A DNA stretch of 51,698 nucleotides, taken from NCBI RefSeq assembly GCF_022763525.1, contig NZ_JALEGG010000103.1, positions 1 through 51,698 of the forward strand, written 5' to 3'. The first letter of the stretch is position 1. Every line of letters starts with the position of its first letter. Of this stretch, positions 38,090 to 47,862 are shown piece after piece. This stretch comes from Acidovorax sp. (GTDB taxonomy: Bacteria > Pseudomonadota > Gammaproteobacteria > Burkholderiales > Burkholderiaceae_C). A program made the position numbers and the translations under genes. The notes below the pieces were generated by a model. It was not told the DNA's origin and searched no databases. It saw only the letters and a list, made by a program, of their open reading frames with translations.

Positions 38090-38147
38090 CTACTGATAGC
38101 TTCTAGCGCTTACTGGCAAAGCGCCACAGGCGAATTTGGCTCAAATT
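38090..38147 (+). repeat. dispersed AGCGCTT hairpin repeat, copy E
   Basis: TGATAGCTTCTAGCGCTTAC is followed by TGGCAAAGCGCCACAGGC and AATTTGGCTCAAA, the same order as copies B and D. It fills the convergent gap between the LysR gene and the ankyrin gene. Confidence 0.75.
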
Positions 38148-39792
38148 AAGGCCGCAAGCAGCTTCTGGGCCGCCTTGTTGCGCTTGACCACCGCCAGCTG
38201 CAGCGGTGTGCGGCCTTCGCGGTCGCACTGGGTGCGGTCCGCCCCCGCCTGCAGCAGCAGGGGAATGCAACCGTTCGCCTTGTGCAGCACCGCCTCGTGC
38301 AAGGTATTGCCACCGTGGTACAGCGCCCTGTTGGGGTTGGCGCCGTGGGCCAGCAGCAGCGCCACCTTGGATTCGGACAGGGCCTTTATCGCCCCCTCCA
38401 AGGGAGTGCGCTGCGCATCGGCGGGGGGATCGGCGGGCAAGCCCAGCGCCAGCACCATCTTCAGCAACGCCTCAGGCCGCTCCACGATGCGGCTGGTGAA
38501 ATCCTTCAGGCAGCTGTTGGCGGCATTCAGCCAGACGGCGTCGCGCGCAGGAAATGCCTCGGGGGCGCTGCGCAGCACCAGGTTTCGCAGCGTGGCCACG
38601 TCCGTGCCTTCGTGCTTCGTGATGCCCTCCACCAGCAAGCGAGGTTCCGGGATTTTTTCGATGCACATCAGTGCGTGGTCCCCCGGCCGCCACAGGCGGT
38701 CCAGCACATGTCCATTCCCTGCATCCACAGCACTGCTCAGTAACTGATGCCGGTAGGCCTCGTCTGGCGGGGTTTGCGCCAACAGCTCATCAAGGCGTAC
38801 ATGGTCGTGGTAACAGATCGCGCTGCGTTGCTGCCGCGGGGTGTCGTACTCCAGCGCGTAGTGCGGCCAGATCACCCGGCCATCGTGTGCCACCAGCAGT
38901 TCGCGCAATGCCTGGTGCACCCCCCGGCCAGGGCCGAATCCCCGTGCTGGCTTACGGCGTTGACCTCCGCGCCCCGATCCAGCAACCACTGCGCGGCCTG
39001 CACCGTCATGGAGACTGGCTTGCTCAAATAGTGCGTTGCTTCGGCCAGTTGCATCAAGGGCGTGTGCCCCTCATCGTCCACGGCGTTCACATCCACGCCC
39101 GCGTCCACCAGCGCCTGCATCAGTGCAATGTCAAACGCGTGGGCCGCGCAATGCAGCGGAAACACGGGCAGGGTGAAGCTGGGCATGCGGGTGAACAATG
39201 CCAGCGGGTCGGGCCGCGCCCCGGCTTGCAGCAGGGCGATGATGGCGTCGGTGGGCAACACGCCGCTGGCCTTGCCCGCCTGCGGCGTGAGCAAATGCAC
39301 GATGAGCGGCCGGTGGTACAGCACCGTGTTGGGGTCCAGGCCGTGGTGGTGCACCAGGTTCAAGACCTCGCCGTATTGTTCTTTGGAGAGCAACTGGTGC
39401 ACTTCCTCCAGCGGGTCCAGCTTGCGCACGGCAGCCTCAAACTGCTTGCGCGTGACGGATTTGGAAGCGTTGAGAAAAATACCTTTCGCCTTCGGGCCGT
39501 CGTGCCATTCGCAGCTCAGCAGCTTGGCGCCCTGCTCCATCAGCCCGGGCGGCCAGTCTTCATCAGGCAGCAGGTTCCACGGCCCCAGCACGGCCAGCTC
39601 AGCGCACAACTGCGCGGCCCCCGCAAACTCAAAAGAGATCCCGGAGTCCTCGCCCAGGCCCAGCATGGCGCCCAGCAAGCGGGCCTGCTCCTTGGGCGGA
39701 AGATCCGCAGTGGCCTGCGCTTCGGCAGCCCAGGCAGCCGCTTGCGCGCGGGACGAGAAGTAGACGGTGTAGCGAAGAAGGGACTCGGACAT
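38141..39792 (-). pseudogene. ankyrin-repeat protein split by a frameshift in a G6 run
   Basis: Two overlapping frames encode one ankyrin protein of about 550 residues. The first frame runs from ATG 39792 through repeat units such as VDAGVDVNAVDDEGHTPLMQ and LLDRGAEVNAVSQHGDSALA. The second continues from about 38920 with VHQALRELLVAHDGRVIWP and ends with units LLLAHGANPNRALYHGGNTL and LLLQAGADRTQCDREGRTPL. The switch lies at six consecutive G residues (38920-38925, minus strand); seven would restore one frame. It could be a sequencing error, a slipped-strand switch or true decay. It is the last gene of the ankyrin/LRR/ATPase run. Confidence 0.8.
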
Positions 39793-39852
39793 GGGGAGAA
39801 TGCAGCGCAAGGATGAAAACACGGGGGCGCCCGGCCGCCCGCGAGCACGGGG

Positions 39853-41262
39853 TCAGGCCTTTTTCTTTTCAAGCTTCTTCAGGGTGGCCAGGCAAGCCTC
39901 GGCCACATCAGGCCGCGCCTCGGCCGCCGCATCAAATCGGCTGGCCAGCAGGGCCGCGTCAGCCCGGCTGCCCAGCTGACCGACGGCCTTGAAGATCTTC
40001 TTCATGAAGGCTGCGTCCCCGCCCAGGATGTGCTTTTCAAAGCGCAGCAGATCGATGAGTGGCTCCACCAGCGCGGGCGACTGCGTTTTACCCACCGCGT
40101 CCAGCAGCCCCTTGTACAAGTCCAGGTGCAGTTGCGAAAAGCCCGCGCGCTGCGCGAAGAAGGCCTCGAACAGCCCGGCAAATGCCGGGCCAGCCACCTG
40201 CTGCAGGATGCGCGCCAGCGTGAAGTGCTCTTGCTTGAACTTGCCCGCGTAGAACACCGGGTCATGCACGTAGCCTTGGGCCAGAAGATCCTCAAACGCC
40301 TGGGCCAGCGGCGGCACCAGCCGCTCGCCATGGGCGCTGAGCACCTCCACCAGCTGCTCGCGCACCGAGACGTAGTGCGGCCGCAGGCCCTGTGCCACCA
40401 TGGCCTCAAACGCGCCAGGGGCAGGATGCGCCAGTGCACCGCGCATCATGTCGGCGTTGGCATGCCCGTGGACGAGGTTGGCGAACGCCCGGCCCAGCAC
40501 CGCCGATGAAGTGATGGCGTACAGCTGTGGCCAGTCCTGAGCTTCCATCAACTGTGCCACGAGCCAAGCCTCGCTGCTCTCGGCGTCCTGCTCGTACGAG
40601 GCCTCCGGCAGCTCCAGCTGCAGCGCGGCGCGCTCGGCCGACAAGGCGTTGTCCACGTGCAGGCGCTCAAAGTGCCGCCCCGCCAACGGCGCCAAGGAGC
40701 TCAGCGGGTTGTCGTCCACCCACAGCCGCGTCAGCCCGGTGCAGGCGGCCAGGGGGGAGAGGTCGGCCACCTGGTTGCCGTTGATGTGCAGCTGGGTGAG
40801 TGACGGGTAGCTTGCGGCGAACGCCACGTCGGCGATGCGGTTGTGCGACAGGTACAGGCTCTCCAGACGTGGCAGGTCCAGTCCGGGCGGAAACGCCTTG
40901 AGCTTGTTGTTCCACAGGAACAGCGTTTCGATCTGCAGGCCGTTCAACGCCTCGAAGTCCTGGAATTCGCAGTGCGCAATCTGCAGCGACTGCAGACGAG
41001 GCAGCGCCCGCAGCGCCTGCAGGTTGGTGAACTTCACCCGTTCCAGGCTCAGGTGCCGCAGTCCGGTGATGTGCGTCAGGCGCGCCAGGTCCACCGGCTG
41101 CGCGGTGCGGTTGCTGCGCAGGTCGATCTCCAGCACGTCGTCACAGGCTGCGATCTGGGCCAGGTCGGCGTCGGTGAATTTTTCAAGATGCAGGCCATCT
41201 GCGTGGTTCAGCACGCGGATGGGGCCATAGATTCGGTTGGTCCACTTGGGTTTGGCGGTCAT
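39853..41262 (-). CDS. leucine-rich-repeat protein with helical C-terminal domain
   Basis: The 469-residue product has about seven leucine-rich repeats of the short bacterial type (residues about 30-220). Units include LEIDLRSNRTAQPVDLARL, LRHLSLERVKFTNLQALRAL, IETLFLWNNKLKAFPPG, LESLYLSHNRIADVA and LTRLWVDDNPLSSLAPL. The remaining 240 residues look alpha-helical, like an ARM/HEAT-type solenoid. There is no signal peptide, so it is cytoplasmic. ATG 41262 is preceded by TCTCCCC, the same string as before the next gene's start at 39792; ATG 41295 is an alternative. It is probably a protein-binding or sensor part of the surrounding cluster. Confidence 0.82.
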   Translation of the reverse strand: MTAKPKWTNRIYGPIRVLNHADGLHLEKFTDADLAQIAACDDVLEIDLRSNRTAQPVDLARLTHITGLRHLSLERVKFTNLQALRALPRLQSLQIAHCEFQDFEALNGLQIETLFLWNNKLKAFPPGLDLPRLESLYLSHNRIADVAFAASYPSLTQLHINGNQVADLSPLAACTGLTRLWVDDNPLSSLAPLAGRHFERLHVDNALSAERAALQLELPEASYEQDAESSEAWLVAQLMEAQDWPQLYAITSSAVLGRAFANLVHGHANADMMRGALAHPAPGAFEAMVAQGLRPHYVSVREQLVEVLSAHGERLVPPLAQAFEDLLAQGYVHDPVFYAGKFKQEHFTLARILQQVAGPAFAGLFEAFFAQRAGFSQLHLDLYKGLLDAVGKTQSPALVEPLIDLLRFEKHILGGDAAFMKKIFKAVGQLGSRADAALLASRFDAAAEARPDVAEACLATLKKLEKKKA

Positions 41263-41341
41263 GGGGAGATTCGGCGGCAAGGTGGATGCGGGCATGGTTC
41301 GGTGAAGGCAGCTGAAGCTTGGCGGGAGGCCCTCCTGGCAG

Positions 41342-42772
41342 TCACGCTCCGGTGGGGAAGTAGCGCGCACACAGTTGGCCGATGGCGTCGCACAGTAGAT
41401 CGGTGGCGGGAGGAACGCCGGGCTCCATGGGAAAGTCGATTTCCTCGCGGCGCACCCAGTCGTCACCGTCCAGCTGGGCGAAGCGCACGGTCATCTTTTT
41501 CCAGTCAACAACCTGCGCCTCCATTTCCACGGCACCGCTGCGACTCAGGTACGACTTGGTGCGCGAAAGGCGCAGGCTGCGGAAGTGCCCGTCGTACTCC
41601 AGGTACAACAGGTCTGGCGGAACACGCTGGTCTGCGCCGGAAGCCAGCTTCTCGACCGCAGACCTCAGGCAGTCGCGCAACCACTGCGGGTACTGGCGGG
41701 GCTGCCAATCGGTGAGGCCGTCGATCAGGCCGGGCGCCCGCGCCCAGGTGGCGCGCTGGGCGGCACCACCGGCCGCGGGCTTGGGTGTGCTGGCTTTTTT
41801 GGGGGGCGCACTTGCGCCCAGAGCGGCCACAGCGTCGTGCTGAGGCGTGCCGCGGAACAGGCGCACATCTGCTGCGAGCAGTTGGCCGCGCGCGGCCAGC
41901 GCCTCGGCCAGCACGACCGCGACGTCGAAGTTGCCGGCGCTCACCGCCAGGCGCAGCGGAGTGCGGCCGCGCGCATTGGCGGCGGCGGGGTCCAGCCCCC
42001 ACTCCAGCAGCTGGCGGGTGGCGGCGACCGGGTCGCCCTCGCGCTGCCATGCCACCGAGATGCCCGCACGGCTCTGGTTCAGCCCGGCAACGTCGCCAGC
42101 GCAGTGCATCAGCGCATTGGTGCCTGCGGGCGTGGTGAACTGCACATTGGCGCCGCGGTCCTTCAAGAAGCGCAACAGCGGCACGCTGCCCATGGAGGCG
42201 GCCATGAGCACCGGGTTGAACATTTCACGGTGGTCCATGGCTTCGATATAGGCCCCCGCTTTGAGCAGCAGGTCGATGGCCTGATAGATCGCCTCCGCAT
42301 GCCTGACTGGGGCGTCGTCGCGAAAGGGCATGCTGAAAATTTCGCCGCGCATGTCCCCCAGCCCGAGGACCAGGCACAGCGCCGCGTCCTTGGTCTTGCG
42401 CGGGTCACCGCCAGCTGCCAGGACCAGCGCCAGCCGCTCCAGCGCGCGGTGTTCGGCATAGCTTGAAAACTCCGTGCAGCACTCGGCCAAGGGGGTGGAA
42501 TTGCGGTTTTTTCGCCGGTTGGGGTCGCCGCCCTTCTCCAGTAACAGACGCAGCAGCGCGAACTGGGTGTCTACCCGCAGGGGCACGCAGGCATCGTCCT
42601 GACGGTCGTAATAGGCCCAGCGCGCCGAGCACGCCCACTGCATTGCAGACTGTTGGGAGACACTGATGCGGTCTGGGTGCACGCCGGAGCGGACCAGGCG
42701 CTCTATCTCTGCAATGAGCATGTCGAATCCGATGTCGTGTTCTAGGGTGACGGAGGAAGATGCGGTGGCCAT
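41342..42772 (-). CDS. ankyrin-repeat protein with unique C-terminal domain
   Basis: The 476-residue product has ankyrin-type repeats over about residues 60-310. Examples are ALLRLLLEKGGDPNRRKNRN, MFNPVLMAASMGSVPLLRFL and LLEWGLDPAAANARGRTPLR. An Ala/Pro/Lys hinge follows, then a C-terminal domain of about 140 residues rich in tryptophan and aromatic strands (YLEYDGHFRSLRLSRTKSY, MTVRFAQLDGDDWVRREEID) that I do not recognise. There is no signal peptide. It starts 11 bp after the ATPase stop codon and is therefore very likely in its operon. Confidence 0.82.
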   Translation of the reverse strand: MATASSSVTLEHDIGFDMLIAEIERLVRSGVHPDRISVSQQSAMQWACSARWAYYDRQDDACVPLRVDTQFALLRLLLEKGGDPNRRKNRNSTPLAECCTEFSSYAEHRALERLALVLAAGGDPRKTKDAALCLVLGLGDMRGEIFSMPFRDDAPVRHAEAIYQAIDLLLKAGAYIEAMDHREMFNPVLMAASMGSVPLLRFLKDRGANVQFTTPAGTNALMHCAGDVAGLNQSRAGISVAWQREGDPVAATRQLLEWGLDPAAANARGRTPLRLAVSAGNFDVAVVLAEALAARGQLLAADVRLFRGTPQHDAVAALGASAPPKKASTPKPAAGGAAQRATWARAPGLIDGLTDWQPRQYPQWLRDCLRSAVEKLASGADQRVPPDLLYLEYDGHFRSLRLSRTKSYLSRSGAVEMEAQVVDWKKMTVRFAQLDGDDWVRREEIDFPMEPGVPPATDLLCDAIGQLCARYFPTGA

Positions 42773-42782
42773 GAAAAAAGAT

Positions 42783-44999
42783 TCAATCGGATGACGGAGC
42801 GGAGCCTGGCCGGGCCTGGGCCGCGACGGCGAGTTCCTGGTGCAGCAACAGCTCCACCTCGCTGGGCTCGAACTGGTCCTGCAGCAGCGGGATTGCAAAG
42901 CGGTATTCGCCGCCTTCGTGCTTGCGCAGCACATAAGCCAGCTGCAGGCGCGCCAGCGACTGGCGCAGGGCCTGCGCGTCGGCCATGACGCCATGGCTTT
43001 GCAGCAGTTGGGCCAGGCTGGCCAAGCTGCTCTGCCCGGCCTGGGCCGTGTGGTACACCACGATGCGGTCGAGCCGGCAGGCGGCGTCGTCCTGGCTCAG
43101 GCGCGCCCAGCCGGCCAGCGCGTCTTGCACGGCCTGCGAGGCCAGCGCCTGATCCAGATGGCGCTGCTCGATGGCGCGCTCGCCCGGCTGCAGCGCCTCC
43201 AGGCATTCCTGGCACAGGATGGCGACCAGGTTGGCGCGCTGGCCGCTGGCGTCCACCAGCTTTTCCACCAGCGCGTCGCTGGCAAAGCCCAGGCGCAGGC
43301 GGCGCAGGGGCTCGGTGGCCAACTCACGGCAGGCGGTGCGCTCCAGGCCGCCAATGGCCAGCACCTCTCCAAAATTGCGCAGAGGGCTCTGGTAGTCCAG
43401 CACGGCGGTGGCGTACAGATCCCAGAAGCCGGCCAGCATGAACCAGCAGCGGCCTTCTTCGCTGAGCGAGCGCAGGGTGGAAAGCTGCGCATAGCCGCCG
43501 CCCGATTCGGCGCGGAAGAACAGGTCGGCCTCGTCGATCAGCAGCACCAGACGCTTGCCCTGGTACTGCGCCTGCAGATGGTCCACGATGGCTTCGAGCG
43601 GAGTGTCGGCCGGCAGGCCGAACTGCAGCGCCATGCGCGGCGCCAGGCGGTGGTCGCGCAGCGAGACGTAGTGGCACACGGTGTGCGGGTGGCCCTGCAG
43701 GCGGCGCTGCACGGCCTTGAGCAGGCTGCTCTTGCCCAACTGGCGCCCGCCCACCACCAAGTAGTTGGCGGGCTCGCGGCTGACCACGCGGGCCAGCAGC
43801 TGCGCGCGGCCAAAGAACGAGCCTTCGCGCGTGATGCCGCCGCGCGTCTGGTAGGGCGAGATGCGGGTGATGCGCAGCTGCGCCGCCAGCAGGCGCAGCA
43901 GCACCTGCAGCGCCTGGCCGCTCACCAGCCATTCGGTCTGGCTGGCGCTGTCGACCAGCACGTGCAGGTTGGCGCGGTCGTCGCCATGCGCCTGCAGCAG
44001 CGGCTCGGGCGTTTCCACGCTGTGCTGACCCAGGACGAGCAGCACGTCGCTGCCCGTCTGCGCGGCGCGCAGCTGGCGCACCAGGGTGGCCTCGTCCACG
44101 CCGGGCGTGGGCGCAAAGACCAGGCACCGGTCCAGTGACACGGGCAGATCGGGCGGAAACTGCCACTCGAACACCAGCCCCGGCAGCGACCAGCCGGTGC
44201 TGGTCTGGCTGCGGGCGGACACGCGCTCGGCGAGCGCGCGCACCAGCTCCGCGGCCGCATCGCGCGCGCCGGGCTGGGCGCATTGCACCGCGCGCCGCCA
44301 GTCCACCAGGCGGATGTCGGCGGCCAGCAGCGTGGATTCGCGCCGCCCCGTCCACGCGAGCAGGCGGTCCAGCCGCGGCAGGCGCGCGAGCGGCGTGCGA
44401 CGCAGGCGCGCAGGCTGCAGCTGCGCGGGCCCGAGCAACGGGTGGCGCGCCACCCAGACCACGGCGCCCGCCGCGAAGATCGCGGCGCACCAGTAAATGA
44501 GCTTGCGCAGGCCGTCGAACGGGTCGCGCTCGGACCCTGGCACTGGCGCGAAGTCGTCGCTCTGGCCTTCCAGGCAGTTGATGGGGAGGTAGCCGCTCGG
44601 GATGGGCGGGCGCCCGGGTCGGCAGCTCCAGGTAGTGGTGCCGGGTTTCAGCTGCACCACCACCTGCGTGCCAGCGAGCTTGCCCAGCTCCGGGTTGGCC
44701 GCGATGTCGGCCTGCAGCACATACGGCCGCGGGGAGCTGACCCGCAGCTGCGGGTTGCCAATGGGCGGCGCGTATTGGCGAATGTCCTCGGGCCAACCGT
44801 CCAGCTCGTTGTGGGCCTGCATCATCGCCACGCGCCACTGCACCAGCTCGCCCCACACGACGCCCGCGTTCTCCGAGCCCAGCACGGCTTCGCGCGTGAA
44901 GGGATTGAGCTTGGGCGTGAGCAGAGCGCTCGCCACGAACAGCGTGACAACTGCGATCAACACCGCGCGGACCACGGCTTTGGAGGGCAGCGCGCTCAT
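42783..44999 (-). CDS. membrane-anchored STAND/AAA-type ATPase with type IV pilin-like ectodomain
   Basis: The 738-residue product has TM1 (about 10-27), an ectodomain (about 30-160), TM2 (about 166-184) and a large cytoplasmic part. The ectodomain ends LAGTQVVVQLKPGTTTWSCR and GYLPINC, the L-x-G ... W-x-C ... Y-L-P-x-x-C pattern of PilA-type major pilins; its two cysteines (126 and 142) would form the pilin disulfide loop, and HNELDGWPED matches the pilin alpha1 end. The prepilin peptidase motif is absent. The cytoplasmic ATPase shows FFGR at 395-398, Walker A GGRQLGKSS (417-425) and Walker B LVLLIDEAD (484-492), then a winged-helix-like end. The start overlaps the HTH gene stop (ATGA). Confidence 0.82.
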   Translation of the reverse strand: MSALPSKAVVRAVLIAVVTLFVASALLTPKLNPFTREAVLGSENAGVVWGELVQWRVAMMQAHNELDGWPEDIRQYAPPIGNPQLRVSSPRPYVLQADIAANPELGKLAGTQVVVQLKPGTTTWSCRPGRPPIPSGYLPINCLEGQSDDFAPVPGSERDPFDGLRKLIYWCAAIFAAGAVVWVARHPLLGPAQLQPARLRRTPLARLPRLDRLLAWTGRRESTLLAADIRLVDWRRAVQCAQPGARDAAAELVRALAERVSARSQTSTGWSLPGLVFEWQFPPDLPVSLDRCLVFAPTPGVDEATLVRQLRAAQTGSDVLLVLGQHSVETPEPLLQAHGDDRANLHVLVDSASQTEWLVSGQALQVLLRLLAAQLRITRISPYQTRGGITREGSFFGRAQLLARVVSREPANYLVVGGRQLGKSSLLKAVQRRLQGHPHTVCHYVSLRDHRLAPRMALQFGLPADTPLEAIVDHLQAQYQGKRLVLLIDEADLFFRAESGGGYAQLSTLRSLSEEGRCWFMLAGFWDLYATAVLDYQSPLRNFGEVLAIGGLERTACRELATEPLRRLRLGFASDALVEKLVDASGQRANLVAILCQECLEALQPGERAIEQRHLDQALASQAVQDALAGWARLSQDDAACRLDRIVVYHTAQAGQSSLASLAQLLQSHGVMADAQALRQSLARLQLAYVLRKHEGGEYRFAIPLLQDQFEPSEVELLLHQELAVAAQARPGSAPSSD

Positions 45000-46425: not shown

Positions 46426-46878
46426 TCACAGCAGCTGCTGCACCAGGGGCCAGGCCTTGGTACAACCCAGGCCGCACGCCGCCAGCACGGGGCTGTAGAG
46501 CACCACCGCGCCAACCAGCGTCATCAGCCCGTCTGTTTCCTCACCCGCATCGTGGTCGTGGGCCTGCGGCGTCTTCTGCTTTGTTGCCACCTCCTCTGGC
46601 CCCGCACCGTTGCCCGAGATCTCCTGCACCAGCATGACCGCGACGATCAGCAGCGACGCGCCCAGCACGCCCAAATAGCCGTACTGCAGCCATGGGGCCT
46701 GTAGCGGATAGAAGGATGCGGCCAGCACCACGGCGGGCAGCACGAAGAAGGCGTGCATGAACCCGCGGTACCAGGAGATGCCCTCGTCGTTCTTCTCGAG
46801 CGCGCCCATCACCAGCTTGTAGGCGGCCGCGCCCAGCACGAAGATCAGCCCACCCCACCATTCGATTGGCGTCAGCAT
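46426..46878 (-). CDS. small multi-pass membrane protein, unknown
   Basis: The family is not recognised. The 150-residue product has about four hydrophobic segments (LIFVLGAAAYKLVMGAL, FMHAFFVLPAVVLAASF, YGYLGVLGASLLIVAVML and, after a hydrophilic loop, LMTLVGAVVLYSPVLAACGL). The loop (about 93-118) is rich in Glu, His and Asp. The gene starts 30 bp after the stop of the upstream membrane-protein gene on the same strand, so they are probably one unit. It ends 203 bp before the HTH gene. Any link to the ATPase cluster is positional only. Confidence 0.65.
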   Translation of the reverse strand: MLTPIEWWGGLIFVLGAAAYKLVMGALEKNDEGISWYRGFMHAFFVLPAVVLAASFYPLQAPWLQYGYLGVLGASLLIVAVMLVQEISGNGAGPEEVATKQKTPQAHDHDAGEETDGLMTLVGAVVLYSPVLAACGLGCTKAWPLVQQLL

Positions 46879-46908: not shown

Positions 46909-47862
46909 TCAGCGGCCGGCAGGATCGGCAGTGGGTGCGCCGAGGGCGGCGGGCTTGCCGTGGTCGGGGGCTGGGTTGGCGCTGGTGTCGCCGTCGCCTG
47001 CATCGCCGCCGTCATTGCCCTCGCCCTTGTCGTCCTCGTCCTCGTCATCGTCGCCGTGGATGTCCTTGTACTCGCTCAGCATGTAGTACAGCGGGAGCAC
47101 GATGGCCAGCACCAGGCCGAGGCCCAGCCACAGCCAAAAGCCCTTGAACAGCAGGATGGTGGCGACCGCGAAGACGATGGCCTGGAGCAGCCCCTTGAAC
47201 CCGGCACGCAGCAGCAGGACGGCGACGAGCCCCTGCACGGGCGACTTGCCGGCCTTGCCCATGGTGCGGGCCATGTTGATGAAGGCCTGGGCGGCCTCCT
47301 CGGCTTCTTTCTTGCGACGGGCCGCATCCTTGCGCAGCTGGGCCACGCTGGTGGGCTTGGCGGGGTCCTTGGAGCAGGCGTAGCGGTCGCCCTCCTCTTC
47401 ACCCTGGGCAGCGCCGCTGACGCCCTCGCCCGGCGTGCTGTGCTCCTCCATAGGCTCCACCACGGTGCGCCACTGCGGGTGGGCGCTGAAGAAGTCCTTG
47501 CGCGACACCCAGCGGCCCTGGTCGAAGTGCATCCGTTCGGTTTCGCCGACCTGGTCGTAGAAGACTTCGAGCACAGCGGACTGCAGGCCATGCGCGAACA
47601 GTGCTTCAAGTGCGCGCAGGGGCAGATCGCCGCTCGTGCCGGTATCGAAGCACAGCAGCAGATGGGTGCGGGCGGCCGTCACCTGCTGGTTGAACCACTC
47701 TGGGTCCCACAGAGCTTCCAGGTCTTCGACACCGAGCATGGCGGCCCAGCGCCGCGCTTCTTCGGTGTTGTCAGCGGCCAGGTACTGGAAGGCCAGCTGG
47801 GCCATCTTGAGCTTGATGGCGTCTTCGAAGAACAGGTGCAGGGTATGAGCGTTTTGCGACAT
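46909..47862 (-). CDS. hypothetical membrane protein with acidic C-terminal tail
   Basis: The family is not recognised. The 317-residue product has a soluble N-terminal domain of about 160 residues (TLHLFFEDAIKLKMAQLAF, then ARTHLLLCFDTGTSGDLPL). A short coiled-coil-like basic helix rich in Arg and Lys follows, then two adjacent membrane segments (LLQAIVFAVATILLFKGFW, LWLGLGLVLAIVLPLYYML). A very acidic Asp/Glu/Gly tail (about 270-300) ends it. This is a cytoplasm-facing sensor-like layout. It leads a two-gene unit with the small membrane protein. Confidence 0.65.
   Translation of the reverse strand: MSQNAHTLHLFFEDAIKLKMAQLAFQYLAADNTEEARRWAAMLGVEDLEALWDPEWFNQQVTAARTHLLLCFDTGTSGDLPLRALEALFAHGLQSAVLEVFYDQVGETERMHFDQGRWVSRKDFFSAHPQWRTVVEPMEEHSTPGEGVSGAAQGEEEGDRYACSKDPAKPTSVAQLRKDAARRKKEAEEAAQAFINMARTMGKAGKSPVQGLVAVLLLRAGFKGLLQAIVFAVATILLFKGFWLWLGLGLVLAIVLPLYYMLSEYKDIHGDDDEDEDDKGEGNDGGDAGDGDTSANPAPDHGKPAALGAPTADPAGR

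Follow-up and report, generated by a model that had tools for sequence, protein, structure and literature searches.

Pilins are familiar as filament-building subunits and as pseudopilins. Pili are coupled to gene expression by PilS–PilR, a histidine kinase and response regulator of which PilS contacts PilA directly, and also by chemosensing of the Chp type. Bacterial immunity often employs STAND ATPases. The nSTAND1 family was named for predicted conflict systems (PMC8195603), and PilR responds, among other cues, to PilA in the inner membrane (PMC6058289). In a 51,698-nucleotide stretch of Acidovorax sp. DNA (contig NZ_JALEGG010000103.1; hereafter the window, locus L001) lies a gene, F0, whose product joins a pilin-type ectodomain to a STAND-type ATPase. 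We tentatively read F0 as a type IV pilin turned into a sensor that feeds a relay through its upstream neighbour, F2, and place the probability of this somewhat short of even. The computed support consists of the topology, the fold, a lost processing site, an intact ATPase, a constant helix-turn-helix (HTH) partner and an exchangeable sensor slot.

The open reading frame (ORF) of F0 runs from an ATG at 44999 to a stop at 42783, exactly as the initial annotation had it. Relatives were compared at 39 loci (L010–L048); four others (L002, L003, L005 and L007) were left out, as they look like repeats of L036, L010, L023 and L039. Alignment A2 holds all 39 loci and alignment A1 holds 38 (L014 left out). 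The architecture first proposed for the protein—a pilin-type ectodomain without a prepilin site, followed by a STAND-type P-loop ATPase—is borne out by profiles, structure model and relatives. Its two transmembrane segments (TM1 and TM2) appear both as hydrophobic stretches and as helices in the model. Two lysine or arginine residues fall within the first 11 residues, one within 147–162 and five within 186–210, a distribution that predicts a head outside the membrane and an ATPase on its cytoplasmic side.

All the motifs on which the pilin likeness was originally proposed are present in the head: DGWPED (67–72), L-A-G (108–110), WSC (124–126) and YLPINC (137–142). The structure prediction has a long helix (36–66) and four strands (85–88, 94–99, 112–117 and 124–128), and profile comparison of the head retrieves pilins, so that neither of the checks named as able to overturn the pilin reading did so. 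Against 32 pilins, hhalign gave a probability of 95.6, an E-value of 1.2e-8 (single pair) and a score of 50.3, compared with a mean of 10.0 (standard deviation 2.1) and a maximum of 16.0 over 100 column shuffles. The A1 profile also matches a genuine pilin, with an E-value of 1.9e-5 for one genome, or about 0.007 over the 369 genomes searched. The head's likeness to pilins exceeds chance, and its homology to type IV pilins is detectable by profile and fold; a chance occurrence of the motifs is ruled out by the shuffles, the fold comparison and the A1 match. The kinship is distant, identity to pilins being 12% over 91 columns in hhalign and 7–18% in the pilin rows of a second comparison. In a Pfam scan of single sequences, Pilin matches 4 of the 39 members weakly, its best E-value (0.0041) being the best of any family there; DUF2474 also matches four members (best E 4.6), and the window member has no Pilin match. 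A PDB sequence search returned nothing for either the ectodomain profile or the full-length F0 profile.

The head retains some features of a pilin and lacks others. Cys126 and Cys142, the D-region cysteine pair, are kept in 39/39 sequences, a bond between them being putative. The prepilin peptidase site, already noted as missing from the window protein, is absent under a strict or a loose pattern from all 40 aligned relatives including the window, none of which has Glu5 together with a cleavage site. A conserved P-x-x-N-P-x-x-R break splits TM1 from the head helix. Lacking the cleavage site and Glu5, the head should be neither processed nor assembled as a normal pilus subunit. The host's own PilA ranks 23rd of the 32 pilins in likeness to the head (by profile score; E 0.58), and the idea that the head mimics the host's major pilin was rejected on this ground.

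On the cytosolic side, GKSS (422–425) and IDEAD (488–492) are found where the initial annotation placed an intact P-loop ATPase. The Walker A sequence VGGRQLGKSSL is present in 40/40 relatives and the LLIDEAD columns are invariant. Pfam assigns AAA_22 to 40/40 and nSTAND1 to 11/40 (best E 1e-7); the window protein alone passes the AAA_22 cut-off only and has no nSTAND1 match. A far relative (L091, 33–35% identity) matches nSTAND1 at 7e-12, and with these matches together STAND is a fair family name. No effector domain was found in F0 by Pfam, nor any histidine kinase or receiver domain in F0, F2, F1 or F4.

Further afield, the ATPase part is matched in at least 8 of 349 genomes of the phylum, one of these being judged spurious; the wider searches scored up to eight candidates per genome within the class and four within the phylum, and their counts are lower bounds. 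The spurious match (G949, E 3e-4) reads by eye as a carbohydrate-enzyme frame and was dropped. Matches occur in 5 of 48 genomes of the class to which G806 belongs, namely G806, G850, G872 and two weak ones (G921 and G810). The G806 relative is cut at its contig start, short of its sensor. In G850 and G872 a WD40 propeller, flanked by a hydrophobic N-terminal stretch and, by eye, a TM-like segment, precedes the ATPase. These proteins share with F0 the ATPase family, at 33–36% identity, and the layout of hydrophobic N-terminus, sensor, TM-like stretch and ATPase; they differ in the sensor itself, in a CHAT–NACHT–TPR neighbour (in L090) and in that no F2-like gene was found in L090 or L091. None of F1, F4 and F2 has a match in L090, L091 or L092. 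The CHAT–NACHT–TPR gene lies directly before the WD40–AAA_22 gene in L090 (5103–11049, Pfam) and in L091 (4307–10287, by eye). Each pair follows a gene with, by eye, a nucleotide-cyclase-like stretch, and has the look of partners in signalling or conflict.

With a WD40 propeller in the same slot, the pilin occupies the place of a sensor, and the slot is exchangeable. It may then be asked whether the head senses pili at all, since this is suggested by kinship alone. The pilin fold could instead serve as a periplasmic scaffold for a small ligand, a peptide or an envelope component, with the same relay to F2. The remoteness of the head from known pilins, the low rank of the host PilA and the unrelated propeller in two distant relatives all speak for such a sensor. 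TM1, the long helix and the C-terminal cysteine pair are nevertheless kept, a geometry that would suit docking to pilus parts, and we consider a sensor unrelated to pili rather unlikely.

The proposed relay runs through F2, which overlaps F0 by 4 bases and lies directly upstream in the same direction. A weak HTH_3 match is found in 31/31 F2 sequences and AAA_35 in 18/31. The F2 model matches chain C of 8bob (Foldseek E 0.0016), which we take to be MalT, and F2 is predicted to be an HTH protein with an NLR/CED-4-like nucleoside triphosphatase (NTPase) fold lacking a P-loop. The F2 profile has one weak HTH match in the PDB sequence search (2kpj, E 0.44), and NCBIfam gives one weak match. At two loci F2 is interrupted: in L031 (4658–5887) an in-frame stop follows 85 codons while F0 is open nearly to its end, pointing to a broken partner or a sequence error, and in L006 (286–1456, genome G003) the F2 matches form three pieces in different frames.

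The fuller form of the proposal, slightly more tentative still, is that a pilin now serves as the input of a STAND switch spanning the membrane. By pseudo-assembly this switch would read type IV pilins or the pilus machine, and it would pass their state to DNA via a P-loop-less HTH–STAND partner. In this scheme the head would dock on free pilins, minor pilins or the inner-membrane pilus machine. Docking, or its loss, might alter how the ATPase oligomerises or its nucleotide state; the switch would then capture or free F2, which may act on DNA or transcription. Pilus or surface state would in this way be relayed from membrane to gene by STAND parts, a task that in Pseudomonas aeruginosa falls to PilS–PilR. 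Sensing of pilin or secretion state had been among the mechanisms first suggested for F0; it is tenable, and the constant partner F2, which that suggestion had not included, suits it better.

Several results weigh against this proposal. Profile comparison revealed no kinship between the second half of F2 and the F0 ATPase (hhalign probability 0.27%, score 16.8, against a mean of 16.3 and a maximum of 24.7 in 40 shuffles, the alignments being shallow), so that an F0–F2 contact is guessed from the gene order. The region upstream of F2 yielded no conserved operator, the operon showed no pilus gene, and F1 and F4 are without functional assignment. Pilins are present in 11/11 genomes with the fusion and in 3/3 far relatives, and equally in 21 of 22 family genomes without it; their co-occurrence is therefore uninformative and gives no pointer to pili. 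The CHAT–NACHT–TPR gene beside the L090 WD40 relative is a conflict-type partner and would favour immunity. So would the matches to PADLOC models in some flanks, where raw counts settle no enrichment either way.

F0 might instead be an immune receptor or decoy, in which a pilus-dependent phage or conjugation protein binds the head and the STAND switch responds, possibly via F1 and F4. The distribution of the fusion can be argued in both directions. It is patchy in the family (9/299 genomes), as a defence gene might be, and occurs in at least 2 of 369 class genomes, its records spanning Acidovorax, Giesbergeria, Hydrogenophaga, Delftia and Pseudomonas. Within the genus it is found in 27 of 47 genomes, 25 of them with a single match; of the other two, one (G1095) has two adjacent pieces of one frame and one (G1086) a second, weak match with stops. 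Genes flanking F0 in the window have counterparts of at least 60% identity at no fewer than 17 of the 39 loci, a lower bound given loci of at most about 14 kilobases (kb), and much of Acidovorax seems to have inherited the fusion at a fixed chromosomal position. No match to F0 turned up in the annotated phage collection. Among plasmids there are nine matching records; the matches lie in other AAA proteins, fall at residues 377 and later and never span more than 80% of the query. Mobile defence cargo was rejected on the empty phage collection, the distant plasmid ATPases and the shared flanks, although three IMG/VR contigs do carry F0.

Those three contigs (L103, L104 and L105; also L106 and L107) carry the Delftia F0 with filamentous-phage-like genes directly behind it—Rep-like, ssDNA-binding-like and coat-like, as named by eye—which would suit an immune role. 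The phage border, ATTTAACATAATATACA, resembles half a dif site. The site also stands, without phage, some 70–80 bases behind F0 in L037 (8222–8249) and L039 (8256–8283), with 7 mismatches in 28 to the E. coli dif site, so that dif integration is the best account of the adjacency. In one contig (L105, at 2332; also L107), F0 is shorter than in L039 by about 950 bases, which take in head, TM2 and linker, and its ATPase part remains as a separate ORF.

Defence families were sought with the 2023 PADLOC library among 82 of 114 flank representatives. At E 0.001, 82 models were matched, among the matches listed by one or two proteins each, as raw counts without background. The strongest in the pooled flank proteins include PDC-M05A (9.7e-71) and mad3 (1.5e-59). 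Three of 10 flank proteins examined matched: a DrmC-like protein in L032 (3.2e-17), a PDC-S04/Fic-like protein in L017 (2.9e-12) and, some 4.5 kb behind F0 in L028 (12596–14151), a NERD+UvrD-type defence protein (C3a187, E 4.3e-156). F0 itself has no full-length match to a PADLOC system protein and one weak match, over 75 positions of PDC-S01 (E 0.0019); F2 has none at E 1 or better.

Sequence evolution of the head also bears on an immune role. Mean identity is 62% in the head against 79% in the cytosolic part, and the head is the less conserved of the two in 764 of 780 pairs. Ratios of nonsynonymous to synonymous substitution (dN/dS, Nei–Gojobori) were taken as pairwise medians over the 780 pairs in four distance classes. 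For head and cytosolic part respectively they were 0.20 and 0.12 in the 47 closest pairs, 0.29 and 0.21 in 438 pairs, and, in the distant classes, where saturation is possible, 0.68 and 0.36 (281 pairs) and 0.63 and 0.26 (14 pairs); such averages may mask single fast sites. The head evolves faster than the rest of F0, yet shows no overall replacement excess, its medians lying below 1 in all four classes, and is constrained in close pairs. Phages, moreover, are known to attach to pili on the exterior of the cell rather than to heads at the inner membrane. With a constrained head, shared flanks, a remote host PilA, no match in the phage collection and little or nothing in PADLOC, the decoy originally suggested is weakly supported, and we regard an immune receptor as improbable.

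F0 could also assist a pilus or a type II secretion machine as an accessory, an ATP-driven mover or gate of a pseudopilin-like part akin to ExeA/GspA, with F2 only as regulator. AAA_22 occurs in ExeA-type secretion ATPases too, the head has a pilin fold and the genomes have pilins. The nSTAND1 matches point elsewhere, as does the absence of any pilus or secretion family from the 25 most frequent Pfam families of the 82 flank proteins; this account is likewise improbable.

The features of the operon, which is compact, are collected in Table 1; gene calls at the loci included some shadow ORFs on the strand opposite F2, and presence of genes was counted by tblastn. Leucine-rich repeat (LRR) genes lie downstream at 5/39 loci and, like the ankyrin gene, are optional. 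In the window, ankyrin, LRR, ankyrin and ankyrin genes stand consecutively behind F0 (38141–42745, minus strand). A promoter and terminator scan gave nothing above shuffles. The best match in a viral fold library had an E-value of 0.28.

Table 1. Features of the F0 locus in the window
Feature	Coordinates	Strand	Basis
F0, 738-aa inner-membrane ATPase with pilin-type ectodomain	42783..44999	(-)	ORF; relatives at 39 genome loci; alignment A2
TM1 (predicted), residues ~7-27	44919..44981	(-)	hydropathy, model helix 7-27, charges
Pilin-fold head, residues ~33-146	44562..44903	(-)	hhalign, model, alignment
TM2 (predicted), residues ~162-185	44445..44516	(-)	hydropathy, model, charges
F0 cytosolic part (predicted): linker domain ~195-380, then AAA_22/nSTAND1-type ATPase	42783..44417	(-)	profiles, alignments
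F2, 408-aa partner, N-terminal HTH then predicted NTPase-like fold without P-loop	44996..46222	(-)	profiles, model, alignment
F4, 150-aa hydrophobic membrane-like protein	46426..46878	(-)	28/39 loci; weak FxsA match, E 0.029
F1, 317-aa protein, hydrophobic C-terminal part	46909..47862	(-)	34/39 loci; weak DUF3742 match, E 0.0062
Ankyrin-repeat protein downstream of F0, optional neighbour	41342..42745	(-)	11/39 loci, one as a 29-aa fragment only

If the sensor reading is right, F0 would represent a new logic by which bacteria read their own pili. STAND switches would take signals through the inner membrane, and an active ATPase with a P-loop-less HTH partner would form a two-part relay. To PilSR and chemosensing of the Chp type it would add a further coupling of pili to gene expression, and the receptor family would be one in which the sensor (pilin or WD40) is exchanged. 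The open-access literature searched, provisionally and in part, yielded no case of a switch ATPase that uses a pilin fold as its sensor, nor a paper joining pilins with STAND or signal transduction ATPases. One paper that brings type IV pilin and NACHT together concerns effectors of a plant pathogen. The word pilin is absent from the main texts, as far as they were covered, of two papers on conflict systems (PMC7159879 and PMC8195603).

Compared with known systems, the F0 head shares with type IV major pilins (Pfam PF00114; PilE, PilA) the long helix, the four strands and the W-x-C ... YLP-xx-C end, but F0 differs from them in lacking the prepilin site and Glu5, in the break after TM1, in its second TM segment and in its large ATPase. 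With the nSTAND1/AAA_22 STAND NTPases of predicted conflict systems it shares Pfam matches and intact Walker motifs, whereas F0 is a membrane protein with a predicted extracytoplasmic pilin head and no Pfam effector domain. The model of F2 links it, through 8bob chain C, to MalT-type STAND regulators, from which it is set apart by an N-terminal XRE-like HTH, the missing P-loop and a membrane ATPase next door. Finally, PilS–PilR, like the proposed F0–F2 relay, answers the level of pilin in the inner membrane, among other cues, by transcription (PMC6058289); in F0 and F2 the same task would fall to a STAND-type ATPase with a pilin head of its own and an HTH–NTPase partner.
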